The translations under genes were made by a program, and so were the position numbers. DNA of 64,000 nucleotides from Bryum argenteum (lineage: Eukaryota; Streptophyta; Bryopsida; Bryales; Bryaceae). Positions 11,611 through 62,800 of this stretch are shown one piece after another. The stretch spans positions 7,274,001 through 7,338,000 of the forward strand of contig CM073321.1 of NCBI GenBank assembly GCA_037043015.1, read 5' to 3'. The notes beneath the pieces were generated by a model that was given only the letters and a program-made list of their open reading frames with translations, was not told where the DNA came from and made no database searches. Each line of letters begins with the position of its first letter. The stretch's first letter is position 1.

Positions 11611-11866
11611 TGTCGCGACCCTAATTATTCCAACTCATTTTTTTTTCTTAGTGAGCCTTACTTGGTAGCGGAATCCCGGCTCACTTAGTTGGTAGCAACC
11701 GGCCACGACTTTGCTAACACTTGCATGTGCCCTCACACACAATGTTAGCACCATTCTAAGTGAAGGTGTCCAACCCACCTTGACTCCATAACTCATTACC
11801 GGATACTCATAGCTCGTTACCCGGGACTCTCACCAACACATGAGCATGCCAACCCGGAACTCCCAC

Positions 11867-12669
11867 TGTTACCCGACTGACGTCATCGGGTAACCTCGGC
11901 GGCCAAAGCGGGAGCAGCAGCGGCAACGGAGATAGCAACACTTTTTCGGTGGAGGCACCAGCAGTTAACTGTAGATGCCTCGGCAGTCGATAAGGGCACC
12001 GTTCGGTTTCAGGGATATCCGCGGCAGCCGTAGTATAAAAGGTTGTAGAAAATAGGAGAGAGACACTCGTTGTAGTCACCGTAGCAGGATATGTTCAGTT
12101 TATCTTGGCAGAACGCTTGAATGTACTCCGTTGTTATCAATTGAATACAAAGGCCATGAGCCACAGTCTTTCTCTCCCATCCTTGTGTCTCCTCATCTCT
12201 CACCTGTTTACTCCGAATACCGAGGCTTGCTTGGTAGACTTCGGCAGTAACCCTAACTGCTGTCTTAGACGTTCTACACCCACGGTACCTTCATCGCTAC
12301 AGTATCACCGAGGTTACCAAAGAAGGTCCGGTAGACAGCCCGACCAGGTTACGGGCTTCGGTGACCTCAGCTGTTGCCACGGTTAAACCTCGGTACCCCC
12401 CCCTCTTTTCCCTTCAAGATCAGTACTACCCACCGATTCTATTCGTGGGTAAAGTAAAAATAAGAAAGAAGAAGACGAATGAAATGCCCCTCCTTCCGCA
12501 GCACAACCAATGTTGCCGAAGTCAACGCTCGGCCTTTTTGGCTACTCCCTGCTGTCCCTGTTAGACCGAGCATAGCTCGGCCTCCCTCGTTATCCACCGC
12601 CATCCCAAACTCAAGTACCTCCGGCGGATGAGCTCGTAAAGCACTCCATCCTCGTTACCCAGGCTAACA
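11867..12669 (+). repeat. 5' LTR of gypsy element A
   Basis: 803 bp, TGTTACCCGACTGACGTCAT...CAGGCTAACA. A TATA-like GTATAAAAGG lies near 12031. Compared with the 3' LTR it has scattered substitutions and about 49 bp (after AAAAGG) that the 3' copy lacks. Confidence 0.9.
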
Positions 12670-12672
12670 TTT

Positions 12673-12690
12673 TGGCGACCATCTTTGGGA
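12673..12690 (+). other. Primer-binding site of element A
   Basis: TGGCGACCATCTTTGGGA begins three bases after the 5' LTR, the expected place and form (TGG start pairs with tRNA CCA). I do not assign the tRNA. Confidence 0.65.
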
Positions 12691-12743
12691 TGGAGTGTTG
12701 AGTCATCCAAAGAAACAGAAACAAAAACGTCAAACACGACACA

Positions 12744-13960
12744 ATGCCTCCACGAAAAGCAACAGAAAGAACCGCGGAACCTGAGGAGGTTATACCCCAA
12801 GAAGACGAAGATACCACGAGAGAACTTCTCCAATGGATGAAACAACAAATGACAGATTTGGTGGCAAAAAACGACGCCACCAATGCCAAGATCGAAATAT
12901 TAAACTCACACTATCTCCAAGGGGTAGGAACATCAACGACTGTTCCGCCCATCGTTACCATGGCCGGACCATCACAACTACCACCGATTGATCCAAACAT
13001 AGCCGCTTCTATGGCATCAAGGAAAGGGATCGGCTCATCAAGCTACCAAAGATACCTTACCCAATCTTTCATGACTCCGAGATCCCGATTGGCACATACG
13101 CAGTTTTAAAGTAATAGCTCGAACCAACGGTGTTACCAAAGACCAAGACCTACGAGAACATCTTCGAACCACCCTTCAGGGCAACCACATCAATCGGGTA
13201 CATTGATTTGAAGCCGAACATTTGTTGCCGACATGGGAAGAAATGGAGCGTAGCTTTTTGCGAAGTTCGAAAGTTAAAAACAAGCTCGGAAATACTCCGA
13301 GCTTTAGGCAATATACACAAGAAAAAAGAAACGAACTCGTCGACAAGTTTTACGACATTCAAACAATCGGCCGACAAACTCGAGTCAACGGCCTGAAGAA
13401 GACTACCTATGTGAATGGTTTTAAAAGGGCTTGCTACCGTGGATACAACAGGGCATTATCATCCGCGGTGTAAAAACGTTGCAGGAGATACTCACAACCG
13501 CCAATGACATTAGCGGAAATTCGGCGTCATAGACAAAAAACACGACACCGTTGCTTCCGCTACCAAGAGTGCTTATCGGGGGACAATGCACCATGCACTA
13601 CTTGCGGCAAACTACATGCGGGGCGTTCTTTCGGTTTTCCAATACACCGCAAGAACGGAAGATACTCGGCCCACGCGAACAAAGCGCATCCATGTACCCG
13701 GAGGAAGTCGATGTAGACGCGTTTCAACCAAACAAGAACGATGGTCATTGGGAATGCGGATCCCCGCACCACCGACGAGGCCAATGCCCCGTGTTAAGAC
13801 AACAACACCAACACCCGTGCTACCACGGACACCAAGCAGCACATCCCGGCAAAGACCGGCTACTCGCCGGCAATAGAAGGGGGAGTTTACACTTACCAAG
13901 TCCACGGCACCAACGCTGCTACCATAAGTACGGCCCGCGGTAACTACAAGATCTAAGGCT
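12744..13960 (+). pseudogene. gag: gag of element A, multiply frameshifted
   Basis: It starts MPPRKATERT, with a helical, charged N-terminus (ELLQWMKQQMTDLVAKND). It is followed in shifted frames by WEEMERSFLRSS and a degenerate CCHC-like stretch APCTTCGKLHAGRSF near 13590-13630. At least three frame changes and several stops are present. The position directly after the primer site fits gag. Confidence 0.55.
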
Positions 13961-18132: not shown

Positions 18133-19683
18133 TGTCACATCCCTTTCCAAAGGATGCCCGAACACCGTGGTGAGCCGAGAGGACCCCGGGAGTGACGCCC
18201 CGGGCTTGGCAAGAGACAAGGTGAAGTGACCAAGGGGAGTCCCGAGCAAACAGCACGCAATGGCGTCGTCCTCGGGACGAACTTGGTGGCGTGTCTTACA
18301 TGGTTGGAAACCTTGTTTGAGCACGCATCCATGGGTCCAAAGAACGCGCGATTTGGAGTTGTGAATCATGAGATATGACTCTCCAAAGTTGGAGCGCGTT
18401 CCGGGACACTCCGGGACTCGGGAGTGTTGCCTTTCGGGACTCAAAATGTCGTCCCTCATGGATGGCAGCATGTTGCATGTCTTTGGAAAGCTCTGGACAA
18501 GAGCTTTCTAAAATGCTAAGGCTCGTGAGGAGCAAAGCAATGCTTTGGGAGATATGGCTCTCCAACGCATCGGGACTTCGGGACTCCGGGACTGCTTCCT
18601 CCCGGGACTGCTGCCTCCCGGGACTCCCGAATGTTTAGAGGAGCATAGCTCCCACATGGGAGCTTTGATTGGGACAAGTGAGGACTCTATCGACATCTAC
18701 TCGAACAGTAGATGTCGAAAATGGGCTCGCACGTCCCATTTGGATAACTGAGCTACACGTTAGCCCAAGAAGAAGATCCGGCCCGTTTTTGAGATTAAGG
18801 CAAAAACGGGTGGTCTTCCAAAACAAAAGTGTGTCACGGAAGGCCCCTCAACACAAGAGGGGGGGGGCCTACCGAAGACTCCAGAGAGTACTATGAGGAG
18901 GGGTGGTCTCCCTCCTCACTTGCACATGGTGCCTTGAGGAGCCGGGGTGGCTCCAAGGGGTGAGGCTTGGGATGGGGCCTCACTCCTGCACCTTGTGGAA
19001 AATGGAGAGTGCTTTGGAGCATCTGTAAACATGGGATTGGGAAGTGTCCCTCTCCAAGTTAGTCCCTGTGATAAGTAGTGCCGGTTCCCGGGAGTGACCG
19101 GGGATGGCTCAAGAAGGTGAGGCATGGAAAGGAAGCCTCACTTCTACATCTTGGGCATTGTGGGATGCTCTTGAGCATCCCGCAACATTGGGTTGGAAAG
19201 AGTCCCGCTCCAAACTAGTCCCCGAGAAAACTAGTGCCGGATTCCGGGAGGATTTCCGGCACAGTCCCGAATGCGGTGAGAAACAAGAGTGGAAGGGGAC
19301 TAGTGGGAAGTTGGACAATGGATAAGGGCGGTTAGCTCCGGGGGTGATTAGTAGCACCCTTGGGAGCTTGGACATTTGTGGAAGGCCGCCCCGTGCCACC
19401 AAGTGGCATGCCCATGTGTTGGTGGGAGTTCCGGGTTGGCATACCCATGTGTTGGTGGGAGTTCCGGGTAATGAGTACCGGGAAATGAGTACCAGATAAT
19501 GAGTTATGGAGTCAAGGTGGGTTGGACACCTTGACTTAGAATGGTGCTAACATTGTGTGTGTGGGGCACATGCAAGTGTTAGCAAAGTCGTGGCCGGTTG
19601 CTACCAACTAAGTGAGCCGTGATTCCGCTACCAAGTAAGGCTCTCTAAGAAAAAGAAGAGTTGGAGTAATTAGGGTCGCGACA
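18133..19683 (+). mobile_element. Solo chromovirus LTR (copy B4) inside element A
   Basis: 1551 bp, TGTCACATCCC...GTCGCGACA. The flanking 5-mers are CCTAT (18128-18132) and CCCAT (19684-19688), a target duplication with one change. There is no internal region. It probably formed by LTR-LTR recombination after inserting into element A, so the chromovirus family was active both before and after element A arrived. Confidence 0.85.
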
Positions 19684-23893: not shown

Positions 23894-25205
23894 CCCACCA
23901 ACACATGGGCATGCCAACCCGGAACTCCCACCAACACATGGGCATGCCACTTGGTGGCACGGGGCGGCCTTCCTCAAATGTCGAAGCTCCCAAGGGTGCT
24001 ACTAATCACCCCCGAAGCTAACTGCCCTTATCCATTGTCCAACTTCCCACTAGTCCCCTTCCACTCTTGTCTCTCACATCATTTGGGACATTGCCGAAAA
24101 TCTTACCGGAATCCGGCACTAGTTTTCCCGGGGACTAGTTTGGAGCGAGACTCTTTCCAACCCAATGTTGCGGGATGCTCAAGAGCGTCCCACAATGCCC
24201 AAGGTGTAGGAGTGAGGCTTCATTTCCATGCATCACCCTTTTCAGCCATTCCCGGTTACTCCCAGGAACCGGCACTACTTATCACGGGGACTAACGTGGA
24301 GAGGGACACTTCCCAACCCCATGTTTAGAGAGGCTCCAAAGCACTCTCCATTTTCTACAAGGTGCAGGAGTGAGGCCCCATCCCAAGCCTCACCCCTTGG
24401 AGCCACCCCGGCTCCTCAAGGCACCATGTGCAAGTGAGGAGGGAGACCACCCCTCATCATAGTACTCTCTGGAGTCTTCGGTAGGCCCCCCCCCCTCTTG
24501 TGTTGAGGGGCCTTCCGTGACACTCTTCTGTTTTGGAAGACCACCCGTTTTTGCCTTAGTCTCAAAAACGGGCCGTATCTTCTTCTCGGGCTAACTTGTA
24601 GCTCAGTTATCCAAATGGGCCGTGTGAGCCAATTCTCAACATCTACTCTTTGAGTAGATGTCGATAGACTCCTCACTTGTCCCCAACAGAGCTTCTATGT
24701 GGAAGCTATGCTCCTTTGAACATTCGGGAGTCCCGGGAGGCAGCAGTCCCGGAGTCCCGAAGTCCCGATGCTTTGGAGAGCCATATCTCCCAAAGCATTG
24801 CTTTGCTCCTCACGAGCCTTAGCATTTTGGAAAGCTCTTGTCCAGAGCTTTCCAAAGACATGCAACATGCCGCCATCCATGAGGGACGACATTTTGAGTC
24901 CCGAAAGGCAACACTCCCGAGTCTCGGAGTGTCCCGGAACGCGCTCCAACTTTGGAGAGCCATATCTCATGACCCACAACTCCAAATCGCGCGTTATTTA
25001 GACCTATGGGTGCGTGCTTAAACAAGGTTTCCAACCATGTAAAGCACACTACTAAGTTTGTCCCGAGCACAACGCCATTGCGTGCTGTTTGCTCGGGACT
25101 CCCCTTAGTCACTTCACCTTGTCTCTTGCCAAGCTCGGGTCGTCACTCCCGGGGTCCTTTTGGCTCACCACGGTGTTCGGGCATCCTTTTGAAAGGGATG
25201 TGACA

Positions 25206-25829: not shown

Positions 25830-27150
25830 TGTCACATCCCTTCAAAAGGATGCCCGAACACCGTGGTGAGCCAAAAGGACCCCGGGAGTGACGACCCGAG
25901 CTTGGCAAGAGACAAGGTGAAGTGACTAAGGGGAGTCCCGAGCAAACAGCACGCAATGGCGTTGTGCTCGGGACAAACTTAGTAGTGTGCTTTACATGGT
26001 TGGAAACCTTGTTTAAGCACGCACCCATAGGTCTAAATAACGCGCGATTTGGAGTTGTGGGTCATGAGATATGGCTCTCCAAAGTTGGAGCGCGTTCCGG
26101 GACACTCCGAGACTCGGGAGTGTTGCCTTTCGGGACTCAAAATGTCGTCCCTCATGGATGGCGGCATGTTGCATGTCTTTGGAAAGCTCTGGACAAGAGC
26201 TTTCCAAAATGCTAAGGCTCGTGAGGAGCAAAGCAATGCTTTGGGAGATATGGCTCTCCAAAGCATCGGGACTTCGGGACTCCGGGACTGCTGCCTCCCG
26301 GGACTCCCGAATGTTCAAAGGAGCATAGCTTCCACATAGAAGCTCTGTTGGGGACAAGTGAGGAGTCTATCGACATCTACTCAAAGAGTAGATGTTGAGA
26401 ATTGGCTCACACGGCCCATTTGGATAACTGAGCTACAAGTTAGCCCGAGAAGAAGATACGGCCCGTTTTTGAGGCAAGGCAAAAACGGGTGGTCTTCCAA
26501 AACAAAAGTGTGTCACGAAAGGCCCCTCAACACAAGAGGGGGGGGCCTACCGAAGACTCCAGAGAGTACTATGAGGAGGGATGGTCTCCCTCTTCACTTC
26601 CACATGGTGCCGAGGAGAGCCGGGGTGGCTCTAAGGGGTGAGGCTTGGGATGGAGCCTCACTCCCGCACCTTGGGCACTATGGGATGCTTGTGGTGTGCA
26701 TCCCGAAACATTGGGTTGGAAAAGTGTCCCGCTCCAAACTAGTCCCCGTGAAAAGTAGTGCCGGTTTCCGGTAATGTCCCGAATGGAGAGTGTAGACATG
26801 AATGGAAGGGGACTAGTGGGGAGTTGGACAATATGCAAGGGCGGTTAGCTCCGGGGGTGAGTAGTGCCACCCTTGGGAGATTGGACATGTGTGGAAGGCC
26901 GCCCCGTGCCACCAAGTGGCATGCCCATGTGTTTTGTGGGAGTTCCGGTTTACGGGTTCCAGGTAATGAGTTGGGGGAGTCAAGGTGGGTTGGACACCTT
27001 GACTAGAAATGGTGCTAACATTGTGTGTGCTTGGCATGTGCAGTGTTAGCTAAGTTGTGGCCGGTTGCTACCAACAAAGTAAGCCGTGATTCCGCTACCA
27101 AGTAAGGCTTACTCGAAGAAAAAGAGTTGGGAGTAATTAGGGCCGCGACA
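25830..27150 (+). repeat. 5' LTR (copy B2) of chromovirus element B
   Basis: 1321 bp, TGTCACATCCC...GCCGCGACA. It carries the family hairpin GACATCTACTC...GAGTAGATG near 26371-26396. It lacks about 170 bp present in copies B3 and B4 near the GTGAGGC repeats. It is an inverted repeat with B1 across a 624 bp spacer. Confidence 0.9.
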
Positions 27151-30526: not shown

Positions 30527-32015
30527 TGTCACATCCCTTTCCAAAGGATGCCCGAACACCGTGGTGAGCCGAGAGGACCCCGGGAGTGACGTCCCGGGCT
30601 AGGCAAGAGACAAGGTGAAGTGACCAAGGGGAGTTCCGAGCAAACAGCACGCAATGGCGTCGTGCTTGAGACGAATTGGGTGGTGTGCCTTACATGGTTG
30701 GAAACCTTGTTCAAGCACGCACCCACGGGTCCAAAGAACGCGCGATTTGGAGATGTGAGTCATTAGATCTGACTCTCCAAAGTTGGAGCGCGTTCCGGGA
30801 CACTCCGGGACTCGGGAGTATTGCCTTTCGGGACTCAAAATGTCGTCCTTCTTGGATGGCGGCATGTTGCATGTCTTTGGAAAGCTCTGGACAAGAGCTT
30901 TCCAAAATGCTAAGCCTCGTGAGGAGCAAAGCAATGCTTTGGGAGATATGGCTCTCCAAAGCATCGGGACTTCGGGACTCCGGGACTGCTGCCTCCCGGG
31001 ACTCCCGAATGTTGAGAGGAGCATAGCTCCCTCATAGAAGCTTCGATTGGGACAAGTGAGGAGTCTATCGACATCTACTCAAAGAGTAGATGTCGAAAAT
31101 TGGCTCGCACGTCACATTTGGATAACTGAGCTACAAGTTAGCCCGAGAAGAAGATACGGCCCGTTTTTGAGGCTAAGGCAAAAACGGGTGGTCTTCCAAA
31201 ACAAAAGTGTGTCACGGATGGCCCCTCAACACAAGAGGGGGGGGCCTACCGAAGACTCCAGAGAGTACTATGAGGAGGGGTGGTCTCCCGCCTCACTTGC
31301 ACATGGTGCCTTGAGGAGCCGGGTTGGCTCCAAGGGGTGAGGCTTGGGATGGGGCCTCACTCCCGCACCTTGTGGAAAGTAGAGAGTGCTTTGGAGCCTC
31401 TCTAAACATGGGGTTGGGAAGTGTCCCTCTTCAAGTTAGTCCCCGTGATAAGTAGTGCCGGTTCCCGGGAGTGACCGGGAATGGCTCAAGAAGGTGAGGC
31501 ATGGAAAGGAAGCCTCACTTCTACATCTTGGGCATTGTGGGATGCTCTTGAGCATCCCGCAACATTGGGTTGGAAAGAGTCCCGCTCCAAACTAGTCCCC
31601 GGGAAAACTAGTGCCACATTCCGGGAGGATTTCCGGCAAAGTCCCGAATGGGGTGAGAAACAAGAGTGGAAGGGGACTAGTGGGGAGTTGGACAATATGC
31701 AAGGGCGGTTAGCTCCGGGGGTGATTAGTAGCACCCTTGGGAGCTTGGACATGTGTGGAAGGCCGCCCCGTGCCACCAAGTGGCATGCCCATGTGTTTTG
31801 TGGGAGTTCCGGTTTACGGGTTCCGGGTAATGAGTTGGGGGAGTCAAGGTGGGTTGGACACCTTGACTAGAAATGGTGCTAACATTGTGTGTGGGGCACA
31901 TGCAAGTGTTAGCAAAGTCGTGGCCGGTTGCTACCAACTAAGTGAGCCGGGATTCCGCTACCAAGTAAGGCTCACTAAGCAAAAAAAGTGTGTTGGAGTA
32001 ATTAGGGTTGCGACA
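30527..32015 (+). repeat. 3' LTR (copy B3) of chromovirus element B
   Basis: 1489 bp, TGTCACATCCC...GTTGCGACA. It ends directly against ORFX copy 3 at 32016. Confidence 0.9.
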
Positions 32016-36890: not shown

Positions 36891-37817
36891 TACTCCGGGT
36901 ACCGTCTCTCTTGGCGATGGCGCTCCCAATCAACGTGCACCGAAGGGAGCACAATCGCGCGCGTGTGCGAACAAATGCGACGAAGTTGGTGAGCGCGGAA
37001 AACAAGAAAGATGAAAAGAGGGCGGTAAACGGGCCGTTTCCGAGCGGAAGTGAAAAAGGGGAGGATGGTACAAATTATCATTTGGCGGTGCGCCATTATG
37101 ACGAGCGTTTCTGGTCAAGGTCCGGCGGCGCCGCCACCTAGATTTCTGTACAGCTGGATTGTATCCGCGGTCGGTCATCTCCGGCCTCAGCCGTTTCCCT
37201 GTACTAGATCTTGCATATTGAGAAGATGTTGAGTCAGGGTCTTTAAATCATGCTCCTCCAATCCTCCCATGGACTTGAAGAACTCGCGAGTCAAGACGGC
37301 TGTCGAACCTTGTTCTCCAAAATTTTGAGTTTTGTTGTGTGTTTAGTGTTTAGAATAGTACTTTAATGGCTAAGAATAATGATCGGATGGCTAAAACCGG
37401 TCAGTTAGTAGTTCCTTAGTATGGCAGCCAATCCGATTGACCTTAGTGGATTGTTAGGGTTACCAAAAGTCCGGTAATCCAATTTCCCCGCGACTGTGAG
37501 TAGTATGGTCCGGATAGGCCCCTACATTCGGAGTAGTAGCCGGTTTACTGTCAGGGTAGTCGGAATGGCGGCGCAACCGGAAATGTTCGGACTGCTGCTT
37601 TTAAGTTCTGCCGCCATCAATTACTCCCACTCTGTAAGTGATTTGTACGCTCGGAGTGCTCCTTCACTCCCGCACACCCAATTTCACCTCCCATTTTGAA
37701 TTCTGAGCGTCCAATTAGTGTTCCGGAGAATAGGGTTTGCGCGGAAGAGAGTTTGGAGAGAGAGAGGAGTTTTGAAGGAGAGCAGGAAGTTTGGAAGAAG
37801 CGCAAGTACTGCCGCAC
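36891..37817 (+). other. 5' flank of ORFX copy 2
   Basis: No gene supported. From about 37260 it resembles the flank of ORFX copy 1 (see 9660-10633). TTTTAAG near 37599 could be a TATA-like box. Confidence 0.5.
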
Positions 37818-40205
37818 GATGCCGAGGAAGCGAGCTGACTTGCCGTGGAGGTTGGGGAAGCCAATCCCGATGAAGATGGTGAAACAGGATTTTCCGCGGA
37901 ATCAAAAGCATGGGGAGCAGCTGCGGGAGGACCTCGTCCGGATGGGCTGCGAGGGTTTTTTTAAGGTCCCCTGGGATCTTGTCGAGCAGAAGATTGTCGA
38001 GGAAGTGGTCAACAAGGAGTGGCCGGAGGAGCACCGGAATCACAAGTTGCGTGGCAAACAGGGAAGCTCGACGCCGAAGCAATGGCAGGCCACCTACCGG
38101 TTTCCCAACTCGGTGGTGGGCTACATCACAAAAAAGGGTGATGAGGGGCTGAAGAGTCGATTCAACCAGCCGCCCGACAACAAGGACGGCTTCAAGCTTG
38201 ATCAATGCAAGAATGCGCGGGACCAAGGATTACTCTGGTTTCTGCTGCCTATCCTCAGTTCGGATAAGCCGACTTCTTGCACGATCAAGCTCATGAAGTC
38301 CATTCTGTGGAGCTACGACCTAAGGAGGGTGATCAAATGGCACCACATCATCAACAAGGTTGTGCAGAAGGAGGTGGCCAAGATCGGCAACAAGAAGGGA
38401 TGTCCCTTGACGCCCTATCTCTACTATATGTACGCCCGGTATGGTATTCTAACTATTCTTACTCAACCGGAAGCGGCAAGATGGAAGAGGCTACAGCCCT
38501 TGGAGGTCGCTCCTCCCCATGTTGGCCTAACTTCGGAATCCGAGGAGGAGGAGCCAGATAGGGTAGTCTTCGACTTGGAGGGATTTCCCAAGTATGTCAA
38601 CCGGACTCTACAGAAGAAGAAGAAGGCCAATCTCTATGGAGCTGGACCTAGCAGCGCACCCCGGAGGTCAACCCCACGGAAGCACACCGGACAAAGGCCA
38701 GCAACCTGGTCGACACAAGCGATTCCATCCATCTTCACACCTTACGGAGATGAGGAGGAGGAATCAGAGGAAGACCAAGAAGAGGAAGAGGCGACTCCTC
38801 GGATCTGGAGAAGGACGCGTTTACAGCAACGGGCAGCCAAAACCGTAGCAGAGGCTGGAGGGGATCAATCCGAGGAAGATGATAATCAAGAAGAGGACGA
38901 TCCAGAAGGAGAAGATTCGGACGAGGAGGAAGAAGGAGGAGCCCGATGGGAAATCCCCGCCCAACCGGGAACGAGTGCTGGAAGGAAGAACAAGAGGAAG
39001 TTCACACCCCGGTTGGCATGGTGCGGACTCATAAATCGACACCTAAGAATAGAAGAAAGGCTTCCCGAGCAGCAGCCACATCGGGTTCAGTTGATCCGCC
39101 CAGAGTAGCGTCACCAGCTTCAGCCTCTGAGCACGCAACCACAGGAAGGCAAGTGCCAAACTTGAAGGTGAAGACGAGCAAGAAGAAGAGGACGATCGAA
39201 GCGGAGCCGGTGGAGCCGGAAGGCAGAGAAGAGGAGGAGGAAGCCCTGGATCCCGATGTCATGCAGGATTCGGAACCCATCCCGGTTATCAATCCGGGAG
39301 GTGATGTCCAACCCGATCCGGTTGACGTCCCGATGACGAGTTCAGTTACCTGCGACAGCACCTGCCCCGAAGACAACACCTGCGACAGCACCTGCAAGTC
39401 CGGTTGATGTCCCGATGACGGAATCAGTCAGCCCAGCGGAATTGGTAGGTGTGCAAGGGGATACCGGAGTAGTCGCCCCAGCCCAAAGAAAGGTGGAATC
39501 CGCTCAGCCGGCAGGAGTCGGCGTAGTCGGACCTCGTGAAGATGAAGGAGGGCGGGCCATCACTGGATACGCCATAGCCGAATTGCAGAGGGAGGAGGAT
39601 AAGACACCGGGTGCAGGACCCATGGTGGCACCAGAAGTACAACTTGAAGTGCAGCCGGAATTGGAACCGGTAGTGCAACTGGATGTGCAACCAGCAATTC
39701 AACCAGTAGTTTAACCAGTAGTCAAGGCAGTGGAAGAACCGCGTAGACAACCGGTTATGGAGGAGTCGAAAAACCCGTACAAGATCTCCCAATCTAGGAG
39801 CAGACCAAAGCGATGATATTGGAGGAAAGTGCTGAGGAGGCTACCACGGTATTATTGGAGGAGATGCAAGTAGAAGAGGGCAAACAGAAGGACGAGGTGA
39901 CGTCCCCCAAGCCGGTGGCCCGCGTAAGTACTCCGGTTTCTGTGCGTATCGGAGTAATTCTCCCTTTTGTGCAGATTCAGGAGCCGGCCGACCTGTGTCA
40001 GATCGCCATTCGGATGCCCGGGACCTCTGGGTCAATGTGGAGGAGTGTAGATCTGAACGTGCTATTTCCAATCCCGGTGAGGATTGTCGATACCAATCCG
40101 GAGAGCACGCGAGGATCTGGGGAGTCTACACCCACGGCGGAAGAGGATAAGACTCCTACGCGGAGTCCCGGTCGTAGAAACTCCTTTTTGCGACCCTACA
40201 GCTAG
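37818..40205 (+). pseudogene. ORFX copy 2, longest copy, with acidic repeat-rich tail
   Basis: Start taken at MPRKRADLPW (37818). The frame is open upstream to 37696, but the homology with copy 1 starts here. The N-terminal domain of about 200 aa (MGCEGFFKVPWDL, WQATYRFPNSVVGYI, LLWFLLPILSSDKP, KLMKSILWSYD, NKKGCPLTPYLYYMYARYGILT) is intact. The tail is acidic and highly charged (DEEEESEEDQEEEE, EGEDSDEEEEGG). A shift near 39000 moves the tail to a frame with KTSKKKRTIEAEPVEPEG. Later frames carry Val/Gln/Pro-rich repeats (VQLEVQPELEPVVQLDVQP) up to 40205. Function unknown. Confidence 0.6.
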
Positions 40206-42853: not shown

Positions 42854-44759
42854 CTACTTGGTTTGGTAACTCGCGACAACGGCCTCCTTGGATTTCAAGT
42901 CCCAGTCATGAGCTTGATTGAAAGGCGCGCAAGTATCGGGTTCGATTAAGTGTTCTAGCCCGTTAGCCACGATAACGGTGGACCACAACTGGTATACGTT
43001 CTTAGAAGCAGGGATGATGTCTAATTCGTTAACGAGGTTGGCTAGCCTCAAGAGCTTGTCGGTTGTTTTAGTATTGATACTCATGAAGTGTTTGACCATG
43101 GCCTCCTCTAAATCCTGAAGAAAAAACAAGGACGTGATTGACAGACATGACGAGATGATATTGAACGTTTAGTTAGACTCGAGCTAAATTCAACGCGAAC
43201 TACCTGAAATGAAAATACAATATGTAGCAAAACCTACCTCATACTTCTGTCAGGCAGCAGCTTGTTCGACAAACTCACGACTAGACTTGGGCTTCGGACC
43301 ACACTTCACGGGCGACCCATAGTCCAACCAAACACTCATCGCACCCATGATGTTTGTGGCCCACGAGGGTGTGAACGTTCCGACGATGTTGGTCTTCTTT
43401 GCCATGATTGACACGTCCATAATTATGTTCGCGTCAGAATGCCAAACAACATGTTTCTGCCAAGTTTTGAAGGAGGTGATTTCCTCTCGTGGGATTCTAG
43501 CATCCCTTATTAGCTCCTCAGCGGCTTGAACATGATGCTGCCCATCGATGACACGGAACATGCACTTTGAGGCAAGTAGTGCATCCCTGTCCCATATCTG
43601 AGGAGCCTCAGCGATCATGGACATAATAATGATGGACTGCCTTGACTTCAAATCGATTGCATTTGTCAAGATATTCTTGTAATGCACAACTCCGGCGGGC
43701 TCTAGCTCCCGGACGATGTACCGCGCATCGGCTTTCACAAGGAGATTAATTCATACAATGACTGAAGTCGAGTCCTTTCCAGAAACGTAACAGGGCTCGC
43801 ACTTCTCCCATGAATCCTTAAGAGTCTTACTTGCTGCATCGTAGTCAATATCCTTCTCGGAAGTGGCATGCTTCATAGAAGGATTCAGATAAGTAAGTGT
43901 ACTTCCTCCCAAATTACTTGTGGATTTCTTACCCTTCTTATTAGCACCTGAAGAGGAGCGGTTCCAGTTGGGGCCTTTCTTGGAAGGAGTAGGAGTTGCC
44001 TCAAGTGAGGCCATACCCGATCGAGTTGTCCCTGACCCGGTACCCTCATCCAAAGCAGCCACAGGTGCCTTTGACAAGGGAGCTTTCTCCTTAGCCTTGC
44101 TTACTTCGTGATCAGTCAAGGCACTCCAGATATTTATGGTATACCACTGGTAGGTCTGAACAAATTTCTTGGGAGAGCTCAGAGTGAGTATGTTCTTGAC
44201 AATGTGGTCTACAAGTCTCGGCTCCGTCTTCCCGACCAGGTAAGCCCTAATAGTCTCGTGCAAATATCAAACATCGTTCGTAGGAAACACGATAGTCTAC
44301 ACGAACCCAGAGACGTAGGTCGCCTAAAGCGTGATCAAGAGGTGCAATTCCTCATAGTTGACAAACAAGATGTATGTCTTGTTGCAGATGGAAAGATACG
44401 CAGGATTATTTTCAGACTGCTGGAAAAGGTGGAAAAATGTGGACTTATCAATGAGGTAGATGGACTACGATAAAATGGAATGCGCCTTCGGAGCCCACAA
44501 CACCCCGGATCGCTCGGCGTCCTCGGCAACAGAAGCAAGGACATCCGACGGCTCCAGGAGTAAAGGCGCAAGGTAGCCTTCAATAGCTTTTGTGTCGAAC
44601 ACCACCTAAGATGACTGGAAACGACAGGAATTAGCTTGAACCGAGCTAAATTCTTAGCCAGGGATGTACCGGATGTGATTTTTGAAATGAAAACAAACCA
44701 ATAGGGTTTAATCGATGTATTCTTACCTCATTATCACGACCTTCATCCCGAGTCCCCAT
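42854..44759 (-). pseudogene. ParB-like gene 2 (DGQH motif), truncated at 3' end
   Basis: Modelled as exon 1 44759-44727 (MGTRDEGRDNE, donor GTAAGA), exon 2 44605-43238 and exon 3 43114-42854, with GT-AG introns. Exon 2 has a decayed N-terminal part, HETIRAYLVGKTEPRL, a Ser/Lys/Gly-rich linker, DYDAASKTLKDSWEKC, then FRVIDGQHHVQAAEEL (about 43555-43510), which matches the Asp-Gly-x-His signature of ParB/sulfiredoxin-fold proteins. WQKHVVWHSDANIIMD and WATNIMGAMSVW follow. Exon 3 has EEAMVKHFMSINTKTTDK. Every block has a counterpart in gene 1. Stops at about 43752 and 43250. Six 21-bp palindromes lie in its introns and 5' flank. The ParB-fold assignment rests on a short motif. Confidence 0.55.
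43168..43188. promoter_or_regulatory. Family-2 palindrome in internal intron of gene 2
   Basis: Left arm TTTAGTTAG, spacer ACT, right arm CGAGCTAAA. It sits inside the intron 43237-43115, the same intron that holds the family-1 site 56772 in gene 1. Confidence 0.7.
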
Positions 44760-45020
44760 AATAAAGTCTATCTCTCAGTTAGCTGAAATGATTCTAGTGA
44801 TTATTCTGGAGCGAGCCATGTATGCAATCTAGCACATAAAATAGTGAGTGTCTACGCTGACTAAAAAAAGAAGGGCGGCTACTTAGCTCGGGTCGAGCTG
44901 ATTTTCCAAGGATAGTGCTGAACTTCTAATTTATTTAGCTCGAATCGAGGTGAAAGCATAGATTTTAGCTCGTAAAGTGGAATAAACGTGTTTTGCAAGG
45001 TAAACACGCATCGAGCTAAA
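44630..45020. promoter_or_regulatory. Family-2 palindrome cluster, intron 1 and 5' flank of gene 2
   Basis: Sites at 44630-44650 (intron 1), 44882-44902 (left TTAGCTCG, spacer GGT, right CGAGCTGA) and 44934-44954 (TTTAGCTCG, AAT, CGAGGTGAA). Half sites lie at 44964-44984 and 45000-45020. The consensus arms are TTTAGCTCG and CGAGCTAAA with three bases between. All lie within 300 bp of exon 1, as expected for operator-like sites. Confidence 0.7.
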
Positions 45021-45354
45021 TGCACACTGTAAACCTAGGCAACAAATCAAAATGTATCGCACGAAGAATGAGTTTGCAAATTTCAACTTCAAATGCAAAA
45101 TGCAATTGCAATCACAATGGCGTACCTAATAAGAGTACTTGTAAGTAAGACAATCACAAAACCCTGCTCCGGAAGCAAGCAAAACAAGCTGAGAAACGAA
45201 AACTTCACTTTACTTTGCACTATGTGACAAGGTGGTAGAATTGCGTGACAGATGTGAGGGTGAATGCGAGAACAAATGCGAGCGATAGAGGTGCAAAAGG
45301 GCAAGCGTCAAGAAGCGGGAAGAGTGGAATGGGAGGAGTTAACGCGCAAGCTGA

Positions 45355-45536
45355 GGAGGAACAAAAGAGCAGCGCAGGAACAGAAGAGCAGCGGAGGAAC
45401 AGAAGAGCAGCGGAGGAACAGAAGAGCAGCGGAGGAACAGAAGAGCAGCGAAGGAACAGAAGAGCAGCGAAGGAACAGAAGAGCAGCAAAGGAACAGAAG
45501 AGCAGCGAAGAAACAGAAGAGCAGGCGGAGGAACGA
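45355..45536. repeat. 19-bp minisatellite, about 9 copies
   Basis: Unit GGAACAGAAGAGCAGCGGA repeats at 45377, 45396, 45415, 45434, 45453, 45472, 45491 and so on. Because 19 is not a multiple of 3 and the unit has no stop in any frame, all frames stay open and produce the same 19-residue cycle. Apparent ORFs of 147-163 codons here are artefacts. Confidence 0.85.
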
Positions 45537-45699
45537 TGCGAATGTTGGCGCAAGTGGGGGTCGAGGAGTATGTCGGCGCCTCAATCCGCAGGATGCCCGA
45601 GGGGCCCAAAGCCGGCGCTGCCGCGTGGTGCCCGTTGCCTAGGTTGCACAGGGTGCCCAACATGCCCGCTGCCGGGGGTGCCCGGGTTGCCTATTTTTT

Positions 45700-52809: not shown

Positions 52810-53480
52810 TTAGGACTCCTTAATCCTATCGATGAGGTCACCTAAAGCCAAGTCACCCGCACTCAAAGGATTGACACCAATTCGATGGTTGTAATCATAT
52901 CTCTGTAGGTCACCCGGTTGGCACCTTGAGTCTAATCCTTGAAGCCACAGTAAGAGTTCTCCCAGAAGGTAGTCGTCCTCTCCAACATGAGGATTCCTAG
53001 TGCGAAGGAACACAGCGTTGCCATTCTCATTGGAGATGCTCTTAGTTGGAGAGTCGTCAATGAGAAGGGTATCACCAGAGGAAAAGAATGCACCCCTAGT
53101 AGGGTTGGTGAACAAGGTCTCCGAGAGGACCTTTATACAAATCAATTTCTGACCAACGTGGAAGAAGCGCCCAGGAGAGAGCTCAATCCTTGTACATTGT
53201 TCGTGGCTCAGGATCGCGATAGGACCTTTTGTACCGCGGAAGAGGTGGCCAACAATGGCTTCCGCATTCCGCTTTTGCATTGAGATCCACACTACGACAT
53301 TATCTGCCATACAGAAAACTTGGCATAGGAATTCCCCAAGATTTGGTTGGGCGAAAACCACCTTAGGACCGATTATAGTTGAAATTCACTGGCAGAGAAT
53401 ATTGTCCTCCAACTTGTACGACCTTTGTCCAACACGCAAGACTCCATGCAATATAGAATCATCCAAAATAATAAGTGTCA
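52810..53480 (-). pseudogene. FCP1/NLI-interacting-type HAD phosphatase-like domain of gene 1
   Basis: In one exon stretch: LIILDDSILHGVL where the DxDx(T/V) nucleophile motif is expected. GEFLCQVFCMADNVVVWISMQKRNAEAIVGHLF follows (the FxV-x-VWS and N-x-xxI-V block), then EQCTRI, and GDTLLIDDSPTKSISN, the characteristic L-I-D-D-S-P of this family. WLQGL and a short tail close it. The first motif is poor (no second Asp at +2), so catalysis is doubtful. It joins upstream repeats through one frameshift near 53490, so it is part of gene 1 rather than a separate gene. Confidence 0.5.
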
Positions 53481-53690: not shown

Positions 53691-53975
53691 TTATCATTGG
53701 GTCGACGATAACCCTCAGGCTGATCAGCTTCAACAAGGTCATTCCGGTCCCGCTGATCCTGATCGGCAAGGATTACAACCTAATCTGATGCGCCAACTGC
53801 TCGGCCAGCTACTGTAGCAGCAGAAGCTTGCTGAGTGAGGTGAGTCATATCGTCGAGTCGACGATAAACCTCTGGCTGCTGAACCTCAGCGACAGCAGTG
53901 ACGACAAGCTTATCATTACCTGAAGGGATGTCGGCGTCAAAGGATGTCCCGAACTTATCGTCAGTTTGACGATAG
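53691..53975 (-). repeat. Coding palindromes: family-1 sites read as YRRxDD peptides
   Basis: Sites at 53691-53711, 53847-53867 and 53955-53975 lie inside coding sequence and translate as GYRRPNDN, VYRRLDDM and VYRQTDDK. The two downstream ones sit in a degenerate protein repeat (QPEVYRRLDDMTHLTQQASAATV against QPEGYRRPNDNTHLPRHASGATV). A looser site (ATCGTC...GACGAT with a 7-bp spacer) at 52233-52251 is also coding. Confidence 0.65.
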
Positions 53976-55551
53976 ACATAGAAATCATCTCGTTGAGGCT
54001 TGTGCAGAGGAGCGCTCATGGACGGCAATAGAAGAGATACATTGGCGGCTGGCAGAGCCAGCACTGACTGGCTTTGAGAGGCAGCAGCCGCTACAACAAA
54101 CTTAGCCATCTGTTCCTGCAATAGTTTAAAGTGCTCTCTTGCCTCATCTTGAAATGCCTGAAGTTTTTCCGTAGCCTCAGCCTTCAACCTGGGCGACTTT
54201 CTCCGTTGCAAGTCAAATTGCGTCTTCAGCATCAACAAGCTCCTTTTGGGCTGCTAGACGCTCCTTCTCTTCCTCCGCCGCTTTCTGCGCCTTAGCCTCC
54301 CGCCGCTTCGTCTTCCTATCTAACTTCGCCGTCTCCCTGGCCCAGTGGTCCTTTTCAACCTTTATTGTTTTCTCCTTGACAATGAGAGCTTTCATATCGG
54401 ATGGGGGAAGATCATCCTTCTGATTATCGCTATCCAAAGAGTAAATATCAAACTCACTATCACTCAAATTAACGATGTCTTTCGGATCTGGAGGTTGTTT
54501 CTTGACTATTGCGGAGATCGTGACATTGTCATCGTTCACGACCTCCTCCTCTTCTGCAGCAGCGTCACCCAAGCGAGCAGCTTCCGATTCTTCAACAACT
54601 CTCTCCTGTCGTGCCCTAGAAGACTCGACGTTGTCTTGTCCATCTAGCGCAACCTCGTCGTTCTGCTGTTCAGCATCCCTTGGGACTAAATCGTCATTAG
54701 CCTCCTCTGCGACTGCTTCTTCCATTGAAGCGCCAGCTCCATCATGTTGCTCCCCAATAGCTTCATCTGTCGAAGCGTTCACAGCACTGTCCTGATCGTT
54801 GGACTCATCGAAAGCCTCTCCAAGGACTCCTTCAACGACCTCCCCACAACTTCTGCAAGGACATTGTTGACAGGCTCGACTCCGGCGGTGTCATCCGCCT
54901 ATTCCATGGCAATATCCACAACGGTTTCATCGTATGGCACGATTGCGTTGTCGTTGTTTGGACTTTCTCCGCCAAAATGTACACAAGTGCGCCCTGGAGA
55001 TGGGGCAGGGTCATCTCTTGACTTTGATTCTGAGTCAGAATCTGACTTGGCCTCACTCGCCTTTCTTTGTTGCGCCTCATCGCCAGATTTGTCTGGATTC
55101 TCCTGCGCCAAACTCACAACACTCCCTTCCCATGTCGGATTTAGGGACAATCTAGGGGAAGACGACAGCAGTGACATGATCTGGAAGGTAATTGTCCCAA
55201 ACTGATCGAGACCTTCAATTCCAGTATCGCAAGAGACATGAGGACCCACACACTCAGTGTGTCTAACAGACGCAGGTAATAGCTTGTGGGGTGACAGCAG
55301 CGGAAATGCCGGAGTAGGAGGTGAATCAGAGTGCACGATGACGGGCACGCGACTCTTTGGGCGCTGGTACGTGCTCGTGTATGGAGAATTTGCAAACATA
55401 AAATTGTTCTTGTCCATCTTGTTTGCGACTCCTACAAGTTTTAAGGCTCCCTTCACTTTCTTCTAGTCTATGAAGCCGAAATAGTACGCTCCGAACATCT
55501 GCATAGAAATGATCACGCAATCATTTTAAAAGTGTGAAATGAGTCGGAATG

Positions 55552-55774
55552 TTATAGTCGACCCGACAGTATCAACTTCCAAGTCAAGTGTTATTATCGA
55601 CTTGACGATATGAGCTAGTGTATGAGAACATCTTTAACAATTCAATCCTAGAGCGACATACAACACTGGAGGTTATTGTCGACCCGACGATAAGGGCTAG
55701 CTAATGGGAACATCACTATCAATACAATCCGAGAGCTGCGTACAAACTAAAGGTTATCGTTGACCCGACGATAA
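55552..55774. promoter_or_regulatory. Four family-1 palindromes in one intron of gene 1
   Basis: Sites at 55552-55572, 55591-55611, 55673-55693 and 55754-55774 (left TTATCGTTG, spacer ACC, right CGACGATAA). The intron runs 55792-55499. Confidence 0.75.
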
Positions 55775-56771
55775 CGAAGGATGTGTCATTACCTTCGCTG
55801 CTAGAAGAAACTTTGCGCCGGCGTAATCCCCGTAGCATTTCTCCTTTAGCGGGGGTGTATGTAGAGACCTTCGTCTCGTATCCGAAGAGCTCCCGAGCAG
55901 CAAATGCTGAAGCGACCAGTATGTCGTCCTTGTTGAGAATGATGAAGAGCCAAATCTTTGGAGTATCGATCGCAGGCTCAAAATCCTCTTGCAAGAAGCT
56001 CAAGAACGGATCGATGGCGCTTCTTGTGTTCGTCACGAGGCAACGTGGAATGTTTCGAACATCCAATACAGCGAGGTTTACCGGTAGACTAGTGTAAGTA
56101 TACATAGAACTCTGAACAAACGCCCTGTTGGCCCAGTCTATTCCTCTCATCTGTACTCCTCCTGCACTCCCGGGTAATCGGTATTTCAAGGCCATAAACC
56201 TTTTCATCATAAACTGTACCTCGGAATGAACATCCACCATATCTTTTGCCGGCTTATGTCTTGCCTCATTGCGGAGTCTTTTTGCGCTTATGCCGCTCAA
56301 CCCAATCGGCGCATGACATCTTGTCGAGAATGAGAAATTTTGTTTGGTTCACTAAGATCTTGAGATACGGTGCATTTCGACCAGGGGTCAACGCAAGCAG
56401 ATGCTGAATCACGGTTTAAAAGTCCTTGTCTGTGAACCAACCGAAAGGTTTGAAGAACTCCCGCTTCAGAACGTGCGTCTTGTACCCCTTGGCGAGCTTA
56501 TAGGGCTCCATCGTGGTTGGGTTAATGACTTCCCCGGCGTGGTGCAAGGTAAGGAATTCCTGCCACTGCTTCCAGATATCATCCAGCAAAGTGAACATTT
56601 GGAGCTCGTTCTTCAGATCTTTCAAAGATTGAATCTTAGCTCCTTCACTATTAGGGTTGATGTTCTGGAATCTCTCCATGAGAGCGTTCGTGAAACTCTA
56701 AATTTTATCATAAAGTTCAAGTAAGTAAATGCAAGCTAGATTACAAGAATCGATCAAGTAATAGAAGAGCG

Positions 56772-56792
56772 TTATCGTCGACCCGACGATAA
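56772..56792. promoter_or_regulatory. Perfect family-1 palindrome in internal intron of gene 1
   Basis: Left arm TTATCGTCG, spacer ACC, right arm CGACGATAA, all 9 pairs matching. It is in the intron 56813-56698, between the ParB-like exon and MERFQNIN. Confidence 0.85.
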
Positions 56793-58321
56793 CAAGCGTG
56801 AATGCAAAATAACTTTGTAATTTGCCTCGTTGAAGACAGCGCCATTACCCCTCTCTTTGTCTTCAAGACTAAACTTGGCGGAATGATCGAGCGAGGTCCA
56901 AATGCTTCTACAACTCACAATCTGGTTGCTCCATGTTGACTTGGCATGGTCCAGATGGTTTGTGATGTTATAAAATTTGGGAAATAGCCCTCAGCTGAGA
57001 TGGATCGAGGGACCACACAATGAATGCACTCTATGTGCGAAGCCTCTTACAGCAATCTGCTCCGCAAACTCCAGTCTGAAGTGCCTTTGAAGCAAAGATA
57101 TTGTGCTAGCCGTTTATGATCATGAAATTTCTATCCTTGATATCTTCCCACTTTGAAGGCTTCTTTTTAAGAAGTTGATTATTCTTATCAACAGGCATCA
57201 AGCAAACCTTCTGTCTTTGCCGGACGTCAATCATATTGACAAGACTAACCTTAACGCTCTCCATTCTGTTCTTCTGAAGGGTTCAGATAATGTATTGATC
57301 ATTCGCAAGGATGCATTGATCGATGATCACATCTACAGGCTCCAAATCGAAGAAGAAGCACTTCGTGTGATCTTCCCAAAATTCCTTCTGCGTGGTCGCA
57401 ATCTTTTCAAAATCGAGCACTTCATCTTTGGACGATGTGCGGGCGGCTGTAATAGTTGTTACAGCCAAAATACCACTTCTAGCAGTTGAATTGTCAGCAA
57501 CAGCCAAACAAGAAGCACCTGCGCTCTTCCTCCGCTTTCGGCTTGAGCCTGCAGCTGCTTGAGCCTGCAGCTGCTTGAGCAGGGGCATCCCTCTTCGTGG
57601 CCGCCAGTCTGGGCTGACTGGGCTTCGTAGCATGGCTCCCGCATCCAGCACCCGAGGAGGTAAGATCTGTCTTCGACTTCGTGGGAGCCGCGCTCTTCTT
57701 CTTTGATTTGCCCCCAGTATTCGGCGTTTTGGTGACAGATTCAGTGGCGTACCGGTAGAGAGAGGCAAAGATTCTATTGAATCGATTGGCAATACTATTT
57801 CCAGTATTGTACACCCAGGGAATATAATTCAATTTTGTAAATTCCTCGTTGACGAGGTCCCATTTTGTCCCTTGGATGAAGGACATGAGGTTCTCTAGAT
57901 TGAACCTCGCATGTTCCTTTCTACAATCTAGGACAATTGAGTGTCTAAGTACAATCACTATGAAGTGATCCCAGACATTCTCGATGATCAAGACTTTCTC
58001 GTTTAGGTTCCAGATACTGAAAACCCCCGAGGCACCGACCTGAATGCGCAGGAAGACAAAATTCTTGAACTTGTTCACTCTGAATGACCACTGTATCATG
58101 TTCTCTCGGAATTGGAAGAACTTGTTGTATGTGCCTTCCATTTCGCCGAATGCTTCCTGCTCCAAGGGATTCTCGAACGGTACGAGGTGATGACGAGTGA
58201 CATCGTAGTTGTATGTATCTACGGATGTCATTGTCGCCGTCTAAATAGAACAAAAGAAGCAACCTTAGGAACTGACTCAAGGAACATAATGACATTGTAC
58301 AGCATGACTCTACCTCCTAAT

Positions 58322-59405
58322 AAATAGACGACCCGACGATATCCTATGTCCATCTCAGGCACTAAATTACTATAAATTTAAGCACATAAAAAGATAAGGG
58401 AGTTCTCGGGAGTCCAGAAGTTTAAATCTTATCATCGGCCCAACGATAAGAGGTTACAGCTATTTGAGAGACAAAGGAAAACAAGGACCTTCGTCTAACC
58501 CTTCTAATCAGTTAGAACGATGCACGTGGATTTCAAAAACGAATTCTAGGGAACTCATACCTCTGCGTGCTCTGATGTCTTACCAGACAAGTGATCAACT
58601 TCCATGTTTTCGACCTAGACAATTCAAGCGGTGCATTTTGTCATCGCCATTGCTCTAGGCATTTCAAGATATATCATGTCATACATTCGGATTTGATGCT
58701 AGTCCTACGGAAAGTTCCTTATCGTCGACCCGACGATATGTACTACGATGTTCTAATTAGCTCTATTTATGCTTTCTCACATTTTCTTGAGACAGCACAA
58801 ACTTTAATCCATATCGTCGTGTCTACGATAAAAACATACACTTACTTACATATTACAACTTGCTTGGTAATATTTCTTCAAAATCTGTTTTAACTTCTTT
58901 ATGATTATTTATTTCTAAGATTACGTATCGATATGTTGTGAATTTTAATGATAAGTTTACACGATTTAGAATCTACAATCAAACTATATCGTCGCCTTGA
59001 CAGGTTTAGCGCAATCCAAGGCGGGAAATAATTCTTACTTATCGTTGAGTCGACGACATCAACATGTTGTTCGCATTCCATGATTTATCATGCTATACCT
59101 TCCTATGCAATCTGTTAGACCTACGGAATGTTCCTTATCGTTGACTCGGCAATATGTAATACGATATTCAAATTAGCTCTAGATATCAAACATTTTTGTG
59201 TGACAACACAAAATACAACCAATATTGTTGCATTGACGATAAACATAGGTACTGACATACATATTACACAATTCATGGTTATATTTACTCAAATCCCGTT
59301 CTATCTTTTGTTTAATGAAATGTTGAAAGTTATCGTCGTGTCAACGATAACTATGTTCACTTTTATTTTAAAATATGTCAATGATTATCGTGGGGTCAAC
59401 GATAA
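58322..59405. promoter_or_regulatory. Family-1 palindrome array, intron 1 and 5' flank of gene 1
   Basis: Sites in intron 1: 58322-58342 and 58429-58449. Upstream of exon 1: 58719, 58811, 58986 (half), 59039, 59135, 59222, 59330 and 59385 (start positions, 21 bp each). Variation is mostly in the 3-5 bp centre, and paired arm positions often stay complementary. I see no further copies after 59405. Confidence 0.8.
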
Positions 59406-60950: not shown

Positions 60951-62800
60951 ACATGCTCGATGAAAGTCTCTTGGTATATCCCAACTTCACATCTGTCGAC
61001 ACCTCCAGATCATGTTTTCTTAATCATGTCCAACATGTATGCGAGTATTCACAACGTGGCCATGGTTATTAATACACTTCTATTGATCATGTCTAACATG
61101 CGGCTGACAAGAACGTGAACACGGGTTGAAGCTGATGTACTTTTTAAGAGATGTGCTCTTCAAGTGTGACCTTTCAAAAATGGCCGCCCATACAAACAGT
61201 GGCAACATCCTCATCGCACATATTGTACTCTAAGAACTTAATTTTCGATGGTACGGCCGACGATTTTCATCGAACTCAGAAGTAACATTCAGAAAGAAAA
61301 TCCACAAATCTCAAGCGCCCACAAGCATCACAGTAGCTCGTGAAGAGACCAAGAGCTTGCTCTTGTATTTAAGCAAGCAGTCACTCACACACTTTTGTGA
61401 AGAACCTTTGTTATCAACATCAAGTTAGTGACATAGCTATTCTCAAGTTCCATCTAACATATTCAAATGAACAGGGGACACAGAATGCTGCTGCTGAACT
61501 CTTGAAACCCAAAACTATTTAGAAACAGCCACCGACGTAGACAGTAACAACATCCTCATCAAGCACGTTACTCTCGACGAACTTAGTTCGTGTCGATACT
61601 GGCAGCCGTGATTATCATGCTCACAAGTACAAATCAAATAGCAACCCACGGATTCCAAGCGCCCACAAGCATCACAGTAGCTCGTGATGGAACACCCAGA
61701 ACGTGCTTTCACATCTCATCGAACATTCATTCATACACTTCGTGAAAGACATAAGATACCAACACCAAGTTGGTGACATAGCTATTCATCAAGTCCTATT
61801 GATTGTGTTCAACATGCAATCCTGAAGCACATGGTCGAGGGAAGTAACTTCAAATAATCACCAAAAAGTTATCAGAAATGGCCGCCGATAAAGGCTTCAC
61901 AACATCCTCATCGAGCACATTAATCAGAGTTTTTGATGATACAATGGGCGATTCTTCAACATGCTCGCAAGTTCTAATCAAACATCCCAAGCCCCCACAA
62001 GCATCACAAGTAGCTCGGGATAGAAGACCCAGAACTTGCTCTCACATCTCACCAACTTCTCACCCACACAGTTTATAAAAGACCTCGGTTAGATACATCT
62101 AGATAGTAACATAGCTATTCACCATGTTTTATTAATCATGTCAACATGAAAGTCAACAGAACATGGACACGGGATGATGCTAATGAACTTTTGAAACAGT
62201 CAGCTGAACCATTACAAAAACAGTCACCACAGTAATCGGTAACAACATCCTCATCGATCACATCATTCTTGGTTCTTAATAATACTGGCAGCCTTATTTG
62301 TCATATTCACAAGTACTAATCCACGAATACCAAGCGCCCACAAACATCACAATTGCTCGTAATGCAAAAACCCAAAACTTCCTCACATCTCATCATAACT
62401 TACACAGTTTGTGAAAGACCTTGCTTACCAACACTAAGTTACTATAGTGATATAATTATTCATTGAGAACTAAGATTATTGTGCTCAATGATAATATTCG
62501 ACATGCAAGTTCAAAGAACATGAATAGAAGATACTGCTGCCGTACTCCAAAGTGATCACCTGAAACCTTTAAGAACCTGAAACCTTTCGGAATCGGCCGC
62601 CCAAGTAGACATAGAAATCATCCTAATAGAGCACAATGTTCTCGAAAAACTTACTTCCTCAAATCATTGGCAGCAAGTTATCACGCTCACAAAGATCAGA
62701 TAACACATCCACAAATACCAAGCATCATAGCAGCTCGTGTGCAGGGAAAGACCGAGAACTTACTCTCACATCTCATCAAACATTCAACATGACATGCCTC
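60950..62800. repeat. Degenerate tandem repeat of about 350 bp, five copies
   Basis: Anchor CAACATCCTCATCG occurs at 61203, 61548, 61900 and 62243, with a weaker form at 62616 (steps 345, 352, 343, 373). Each unit also has a GGCCGCC/CAGCCACC word 25 bp before the anchor, then CAAGCGCCCACAAGCATCAC, AGTAGCTCGTGA and GTTGGTGACATAGCTATTCA. No ORF. Confidence 0.7.

Follow-up and report, generated by a model that had tools for sequence, protein, structure and literature searches.

Why do two related genes in one stretch of Bryum argenteum DNA each carry repeated 21-bp palindromes in their introns and 5′ flanks, and why do the palindromes of the two genes differ in their core? The genes, gene 1 and gene 2, lie in the window, as we call the whole 64,000-nucleotide stretch analysed (contig CM073321.1, hereafter C1, positions 7274001–7338000), in an assembly of 258.8 Mb and 25 contigs. 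Our analysis suggests that the palindromes mark copies of large mobile elements, and that a family-specific motif would let each family recognise and tag its own DNA. In the explanation that we regard, taken whole, as moderately probable, each window gene is a decayed copy from one of two families that belong to a single kind of giant DNA transposon, in which a ParB-type protein would bind the element's own palindromes as a self-mark or shield.

Palindromes of the two genes and their families

In the window, the motif TTTAGCTCGnnnCGAGCTAAA matches at four places at ≤3 mismatches, all within gene 2 (chance expectation, 0.01; 0 of 100 shuffles give four), and the motif TTATCGTCGnnnCGACGATAA has 12 sites, every one inside 53691–59405, in gene 1 (shuffle expectation, 0.02). 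Across the assembly, at ≤2 mismatches, the first motif occurs at 11,511 places and the second at 844, and the backward-read control patterns occur at 3 places each. A preliminary description of the window had listed four palindromes and two half sites in gene 2; the mismatch search verified all four palindrome starts, and the half site at 44964 is right, while the one placed at 45000 belongs at 45012. The sites are:

43168..43188: gene-2 palindrome in intron 1, which separates the ParB exon from the methyltransferase-like exon; 2 mismatches to TTTAGCTCGnnnCGAGCTAAA
44630..44650: gene-2 palindrome in the intron preceding the ParB exon; 2 mismatches
44882..44902: gene-2 palindrome in the 5′ flank; 3 mismatches
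44934..44954: gene-2 palindrome in the 5′ flank; 2 mismatches
44964..44972, plus strand: gene-2 half site TTTAGCTCG, read off the sequence
45012..45020, plus strand: gene-2 half site CGAGCTAAA, read off the sequence
53691..53975: three gene-1 palindromes (53691, 53847, 53955)
55673..55774: two gene-1 palindromes in intron 2 (55673, 55754)
56772..56792: perfect gene-1 palindrome in intron 1; 0 mismatches
58429..59405: six gene-1 5′ palindromes (58429, 58719, 58811, 59039, 59330, 59385)

As described earlier, the sites occupy matching places in the two genes: both have them in the 5′ flank and in the introns on either side of the ParB exon. One intron further on, gene 1 and longer copies of the gene-2 type carry sites too; gene 2 of the window ends short of that intron. 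The introns are indeed otherwise unalignable: among 15 chosen intron and 5′ segments with palindromes masked, there was no between-type similarity at E ≤ 0.01, and the only alignments were two pairs, both within the gene-1 type.

Families were compared in 43 loci chosen among those fetched (37 of type I, 4 of gene-1 type and 2 of type III), a set that leaves out overlapping, gene-less and very short loci. All four gene-1-type loci carry only TTATCGTCG-type sites (≤3 mismatches), and none of the 39 other loci has any. On the methyltransferase-like exon, the gene-1 type forms one clade (4 rows, support 100/100) and type I another (8 rows, 99/100); the placement of type III has a support of 51/36. 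A subfamily of type I, Ib (around loci L023–L049), has an asymmetric motif of its own, TTTAGGTAGnnnCCTGCTAAA, present at 473+557 places genome-wide (a count made without a control). Among the first 100 listed TTTAGGTAGnnnCCTGCTAAA places, 57 lie beside a gene of their own subfamily (47 ParB, 10 transposase-like) and none beside another, all 57 being oriented along the direction of the gene; among the first 100 listed places of the type I motif, 45 lie beside the other subfamily and one beside the TTTAGGTAGnnnCCTGCTAAA subfamily. This assignment of sites to genes used 50 of the 150 transposase-like places. With limits given below, these comparisons support co-divergence of motif and protein between families.

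The palindromes avoid coding sequence: 3 of 506 sites in the 43 loci fall in that of exons 1 and 2, versus 260 expected by length. Homologues in other sequence sets end, by eye and at the protein level only, in peptides that equal the palindrome translated by intron read-through (LARVELK/N in P0013 and P0014, SSTRAK in P0018, and a one-base variant in P0012). Sites are regularly spaced in type I (52–53 and 35 bp), in type III and the transposase-like genes of L010 type (45–46 bp) and in Ib (30 bp), and irregularly in the gene-1 type. Two loci, L051 and L052, carry 24 and 31 sites; at L051:2197–2269, five direct single half sites TTTAGCTCG with a 16-bp period lie 5′ of the palindrome array.

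The two motifs had been assigned the same 9-3-9 geometry. Their common length of 21 bp holds, and the division into arms and spacer differs somewhat. In types I and III the three "spacer" positions are held at A-S-T (1.82, 0.57 and 1.72 bits in type I), which makes the site a 10-1-10 palindrome. The gene-1 type has a nearly unconstrained spacer (0.32–0.63 bits), weakly conserved outermost bases (0.47 and 0.60 bits) and free flanks (≤0.38 bits), so that its site is nearer 8-3-8. In arrays of types I and III, the flanks partly extend the palindrome, by GCCCA/TGGGC in type I and by CAG/CTG in type III and its transposase-like genes.

The element and its two genes

Longer copies share one order. 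A 5′ palindrome array comes first and is followed by exon 1, which has the ParB fold; after an intron holding one to a few palindromes comes the methyltransferase-like exon 2, then an intron with a palindrome array of its own, and finally the charged exon 3 and an exon for a NIF-type phosphatase. Exon limits are taken from open frames and homology rather than from transcripts. Gene-2-type copies on C3 and C6 are ~90–95% identical across this ParB-to-NIF stretch. The 3′ terminus is sharp: GAATTACGTGTT is present in 18 of 20 further copies fetched and a variant of it in two, and beyond it the copies differ. The C6 copy departs from the others ~26 bases short of this terminus; a 3′ end at ...CAGTATAT, 26 bases short of the true one, was rejected. 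No inverted copy of the 3′ terminus was found in two joined stretches or in the window. At the other end, nine of 12 fetched 5′ segments share one sequence and three another, by eye, up to the edge of the fetched DNA, which places the 5′ end farther out.

For the gene-2 ParB exon, 751 candidates yielded 150 scored relatives, many with stops and several, on other contigs, with open frames; the gene-1 exon has 108 matches in the assembly. Although C1 (44.1 Mb) makes up 17% of the assembly, 127 of the 150 scored gene-2-type places lie on it, many of them decayed; it is perhaps a non-recombining or sex chromosome. At L078 (C1:1967910–1968035), the end of a gene-2-type element lies 5 bases away from a palindrome of the gene-1 type, which may reflect an insertion next to or within the other family.

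A fragment of a transposase-like gene (P0142) lies on the opposite strand upstream of the C6 copy; 11 palindrome sites are found 5′ of it, and it is 32–33% identical to two L010-type frames tested. Five L010-type homologues were scanned for Pfam DUF7869: three are above the cut-off, one is below it and one has no match. At 67 of the 150 gene-2-type ParB places, the nearest neighbour within 30 kb is a P0142-type match, upstream and on the other strand; a partner of this type lies within 20 kb at 62 places, versus a mean of 3.4 and a maximum of 11 in 500 random placements. The median distance to the partner is 11.3 kb. The 67 linked pairs respect subfamily without exception (27 and 40). Judged from position and copy number rather than from a catalytic domain, the P0142-type protein is probably a transposase. 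Two L010-type genes, one on C3 and one on C8, keep long frames open over 989 and 980 residues and have 8 and 9 perfect TTTAGCTCG palindromes, mostly 45–46 bp apart and all within ~750 bases 5′ of the first ATG. Genes of L010 type lie 9–10 kb from the two type III genes; as partner of the gene-2 element the type was rejected, copies off C1 not lying, by eye, within 15 kb of gene-2 places. The short telomere repeat (TTTAGGG)4 occurs at 997+224 places in the assembly (reversed control, 0), among them window 2978–3005, C1:227366, C1:2531497, C1:6717117 and C1:5240545; several copies, by eye, are 0.5–2 kb away from palindrome arrays of the gene-1 type or sit 5′ of transposase-like genes of L010 type, which may mean that the repeats belong to the elements.

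The ParB and methyltransferase-like exons are consecutive on one strand, linked to the divergent transposase-like gene, and would form a single spliced protein. Structural matches of a model predicted for homologues assign exon 1 a ParB N-terminal CTPase fold, and structure comparison of the model of exon 2 points to an amino-methyltransferase-like domain with a possible Rossmann-type fold. The cytidine triphosphate (CTP)-binding residues of the ParB superfamily form a GERR-type box; at the place equated with it by eye, type I has DGQHH and types II and III have NGQHS/T. For a central helix-turn-helix of the kind that contacts parS, the regions flanking the ParB domain are of low confidence and gave no meaningful sequence match in PDB or Pfam. 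Nothing above the cut-off was found for the two exons in Pfam or for the ParB exon in NCBIfam, a Pfam match to DndB below the cut-off (E 0.049) being a weak echo of the DGQH motif, and no meaningful sequence link to solved structures emerged. A viral origin was rejected: viral contigs contained no relative of either exon alignment, and a tblastn search of phages with P0006 gave no match.

In the window, gene 2 is a decayed fragment, truncated near 42854 and with an in-frame stop between two open reading frame (ORF) pieces (43250–43750 and 43751–44266); selection is therefore unreadable from that copy alone and is read from the family instead. The coding parts are:

43250..44266, minus strand: gene 2 exon 1, ParB-fold domain with motif VIDGQHHVQAAEEL, in two stop-split ORF pieces; fold from homologues
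42854..43168, minus strand: start of the gene 2 methyltransferase-like exon, where the copy ends; ORF continues into the intron; by-eye match to aligned homologues
56772..58240, minus strand: gene 1 N-terminal and ParB-like exons (ORF pieces 57494–58240, 57283–57828, 56772–56990)
55719..56697, minus strand: gene 1 methyltransferase-like exon (ORF pieces 56416–56697, 55719–56348)
52810..53385, minus strand: gene 1 C-terminal piece resembling the NIF phosphatase exon of L053, by eye (L053:7610–7999)

The ParB-like part of gene 1 is 46% identical to L055 across 157 residues. The L053 exon matches NIF at E 9.3e-7, and the gene 1 C-terminal piece itself had no match in a Pfam scan.

Other repeats in the window include a 19-bp tandem repeat (GGAACAGAAGAGCAGCG..) upstream of gene 2 (45311–45543) and diverged ~340-bp repeats upstream of gene 1 (61178–62786). 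Two more 9-3-9 palindromes, AAAGCTCTG-GAC-AAGAGCTTT and CATCTACTC-AAA-GAGTAGATG, recur with small variants ~200 bp apart at 18487–18714, 24640–24851, 26183–26394 and 30881–31092, probably copies of a single repeat. The start of 37800–40200, translated by eye, is similar to a long ORF beside the C6 element copy (B 10661–13708), and the segment may be another repeat family.

What the palindromes may be for

Longer gene-2-type elements comprise two divergent genes, one for the probable transposase, with DUF7869-bearing relatives, and one for a second protein that would join ParB-fold, amino-methyltransferase-like and NIF-phosphatase parts. In the mechanism that we propose, the second protein would bind the element's own palindromes, arrayed 5′ of both genes and in introns, and binding would mark or shield element copies from silencing and keep both genes expressed, much as VANC proteins act on VANDAL elements. 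Motif and protein would drift together between families, so that each family would mostly serve itself. In a bolder and doubtful version, a lineage of eukaryotic transposons would have converted a bacterial ParB/methyltransferase protein into a parS-like self-address, in which a nucleotide-gated clamp at intron and promoter palindromes would spread over the chromatin of the element and protect it, with a private address for each family.

Several observations weigh against this mechanism. Type III (L011 and L012), a third protein type, retains the type I palindrome TTTAGCTCG unchanged despite a ParB domain that, in L011, shares about 25% identity with gene 2 and 36% with the gene-1 type. This sharing of one palindrome across divergent proteins agrees in part with the outcome that the preliminary description had named as refuting, and is compatible with a single motif switch on the gene-1 branch. 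Within type I, the asymmetric motif is present at 24 of the 29 loci L022–L050, and every one of these 24 has TTTAGCTCG-like sites as well; only TTTAGCTCG-like sites are found at the remaining 5 and in gene 2 of the window, and the switch to the asymmetric motif is incomplete. The earlier expectation of one palindrome per paralog fits the split of the 43 loci by family and the TTTAGGTAGnnnCCTGCTAAA subfamily, and fails for type III and for the mixed sites of type I. Among the first 100 sites of each motif, 43 (TTTAGGTAGnnnCCTGCTAAA) and 54 (type I motif) could be assigned to no gene; 71 of 150 ParB places have no transposase-like match within 30 kb, and 12 have another arrangement. Neither a 5′ terminus nor a target-site duplication was found in the DNA fetched. 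Both structure models are of low confidence (mean predicted local distance difference test scores of 51 and 52). In amino (N4/N6) DNA methyltransferases, DPPY is the catalytic motif and FxGxG the S-adenosylmethionine-binding motif; neither is recognisable in the methyltransferase-like domain, where the places equated by eye read DLRxVPG and AGTKP, so the domain may not methylate. What is observed is the structure of the element, the linkage of its two genes, the placement of the motif and its association with family; the transposase role, the part of the ParB-type protein as binder, the joining of the exons into one protein and the anti-silencing or marking effect are inferences, and the transposase-like protein could be the palindrome binder instead.

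CACTA and Mutator elements have subterminal transposase-binding repeats, and if the palindromes were such repeats, the ParB-like protein would be an accessory with another target. Arrays do sit 5′ of transposase-like genes, and motif families follow transposase as well as ParB subfamilies, but the introns of the ParB gene, deep in the element, are also full of sites that end-binding does not need, and we consider this account unlikely. Plain transcriptional autoregulation, in which an element-encoded repressor or activator would tune both promoters as KorB does on RK2 and leave no epigenetic mark, appears quite unlikely to us: intron sites, and the numbers of sites at L051 and L052, exceed the need of two promoters, and a methyltransferase-like domain follows the ParB fold.

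The form of the sites bears on two further accounts. A stem of 9–10 bp with a 1–3-nucleotide loop, present in introns and partly lengthened by the array flanks of types I and III, could act as an RNA or single-strand hairpin, for example in splicing or transposition. Arm changes, however, are mostly not compensatory: one-sided changes outnumber two-sided ones by 116 to 3 in type I, 33 to 0 in type III and its transposase-like genes, 51 to 11 in the gene-1 type (where 5 of the two-sided changes retain pairing) and 287 to 31 in Ib (where 16 do), with 22 of all 45 two-sided changes keeping a pair. Ib sites keep their sequence at 18–24% pairing at three arm positions, and direct arrays of single half sites exist. 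Protein-bound DNA is the better reading, and a hairpin extremely improbable. Functionless drift of tandem repeats inside a mobile element would suit tandem arrays, recent copies and the partly conserved array flanks of types I and III; it is highly improbable given that the same 21 bp turn up in various introns and various 5′ regions, at different spacings (52–53, 45–46 and 35 bp) and in two divergent protein types, and that gene-1-type arms are conserved and flanks and spacing are not.

Comparison with known systems

Bacterial ParB, Noc and KorB use multi-copy palindromic sites, parS, NBS and OB. The present system shares with them a CTPase-type fold, judged from structural matches, and multi-copy palindromic targets, but has no recognised helix-turn-helix and has its 21-bp sites in arrays. 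The likeness to partition- and restriction-type recognisers drawn in the preliminary description is apt, in view of the ParB CTPase fold and the amino-methyltransferase-like domain.

Proteins joining ParB and amino-methyltransferase domains are on record from algal transposons: their genes and the transposase gene of a giant DNA transposon lie on opposite strands, and it has been suggested that these proteins may bind and modify their own element (PMC12477816). The Bryum elements appear to share this arrangement, ParB-like and amino-methyltransferase-like domains lying opposite a probable transposase. They differ in an apparently degenerate methyltransferase-like domain, in the NIF phosphatase domain that comes next and in a partner whose relatives have DUF7869; candidate target sites are visible here and family-specific, whereas the passage describing the algal proteins names no target site.

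In Arabidopsis, VANC21 is described as binding YAGTATTAY motifs, repeated both upstream of the transposase and within introns, and as removing methylation, with related VANC proteins serving other VANDAL families (PMC5735166). Both systems, as far as that account goes, have an element-encoded protein, a short tandem motif in introns and upstream of the transposase, and relatives that serve other families. VANC proteins, however, belong to DUF1985/DUF287, for which the exons scanned here gave no Pfam match, and not to the ParB, methyltransferase or NIF groups; YAGTATTAY is shorter and not an inverted repeat of this kind; and binding and demethylation are demonstrated there, whereas the present system is known from sequence alone. 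The Bryum elements would thus combine a protein like that of the algal transposons with a target layout like that of VANC. With thousands of candidate target sites and at least three motif variants tied to families, the self-binding guess made for the algal proteins becomes testable; if it is true, sequence-specific self-recognition by element proteins, for which VANC is the known case, evolved on more than one occasion, each time from an unrelated protein.
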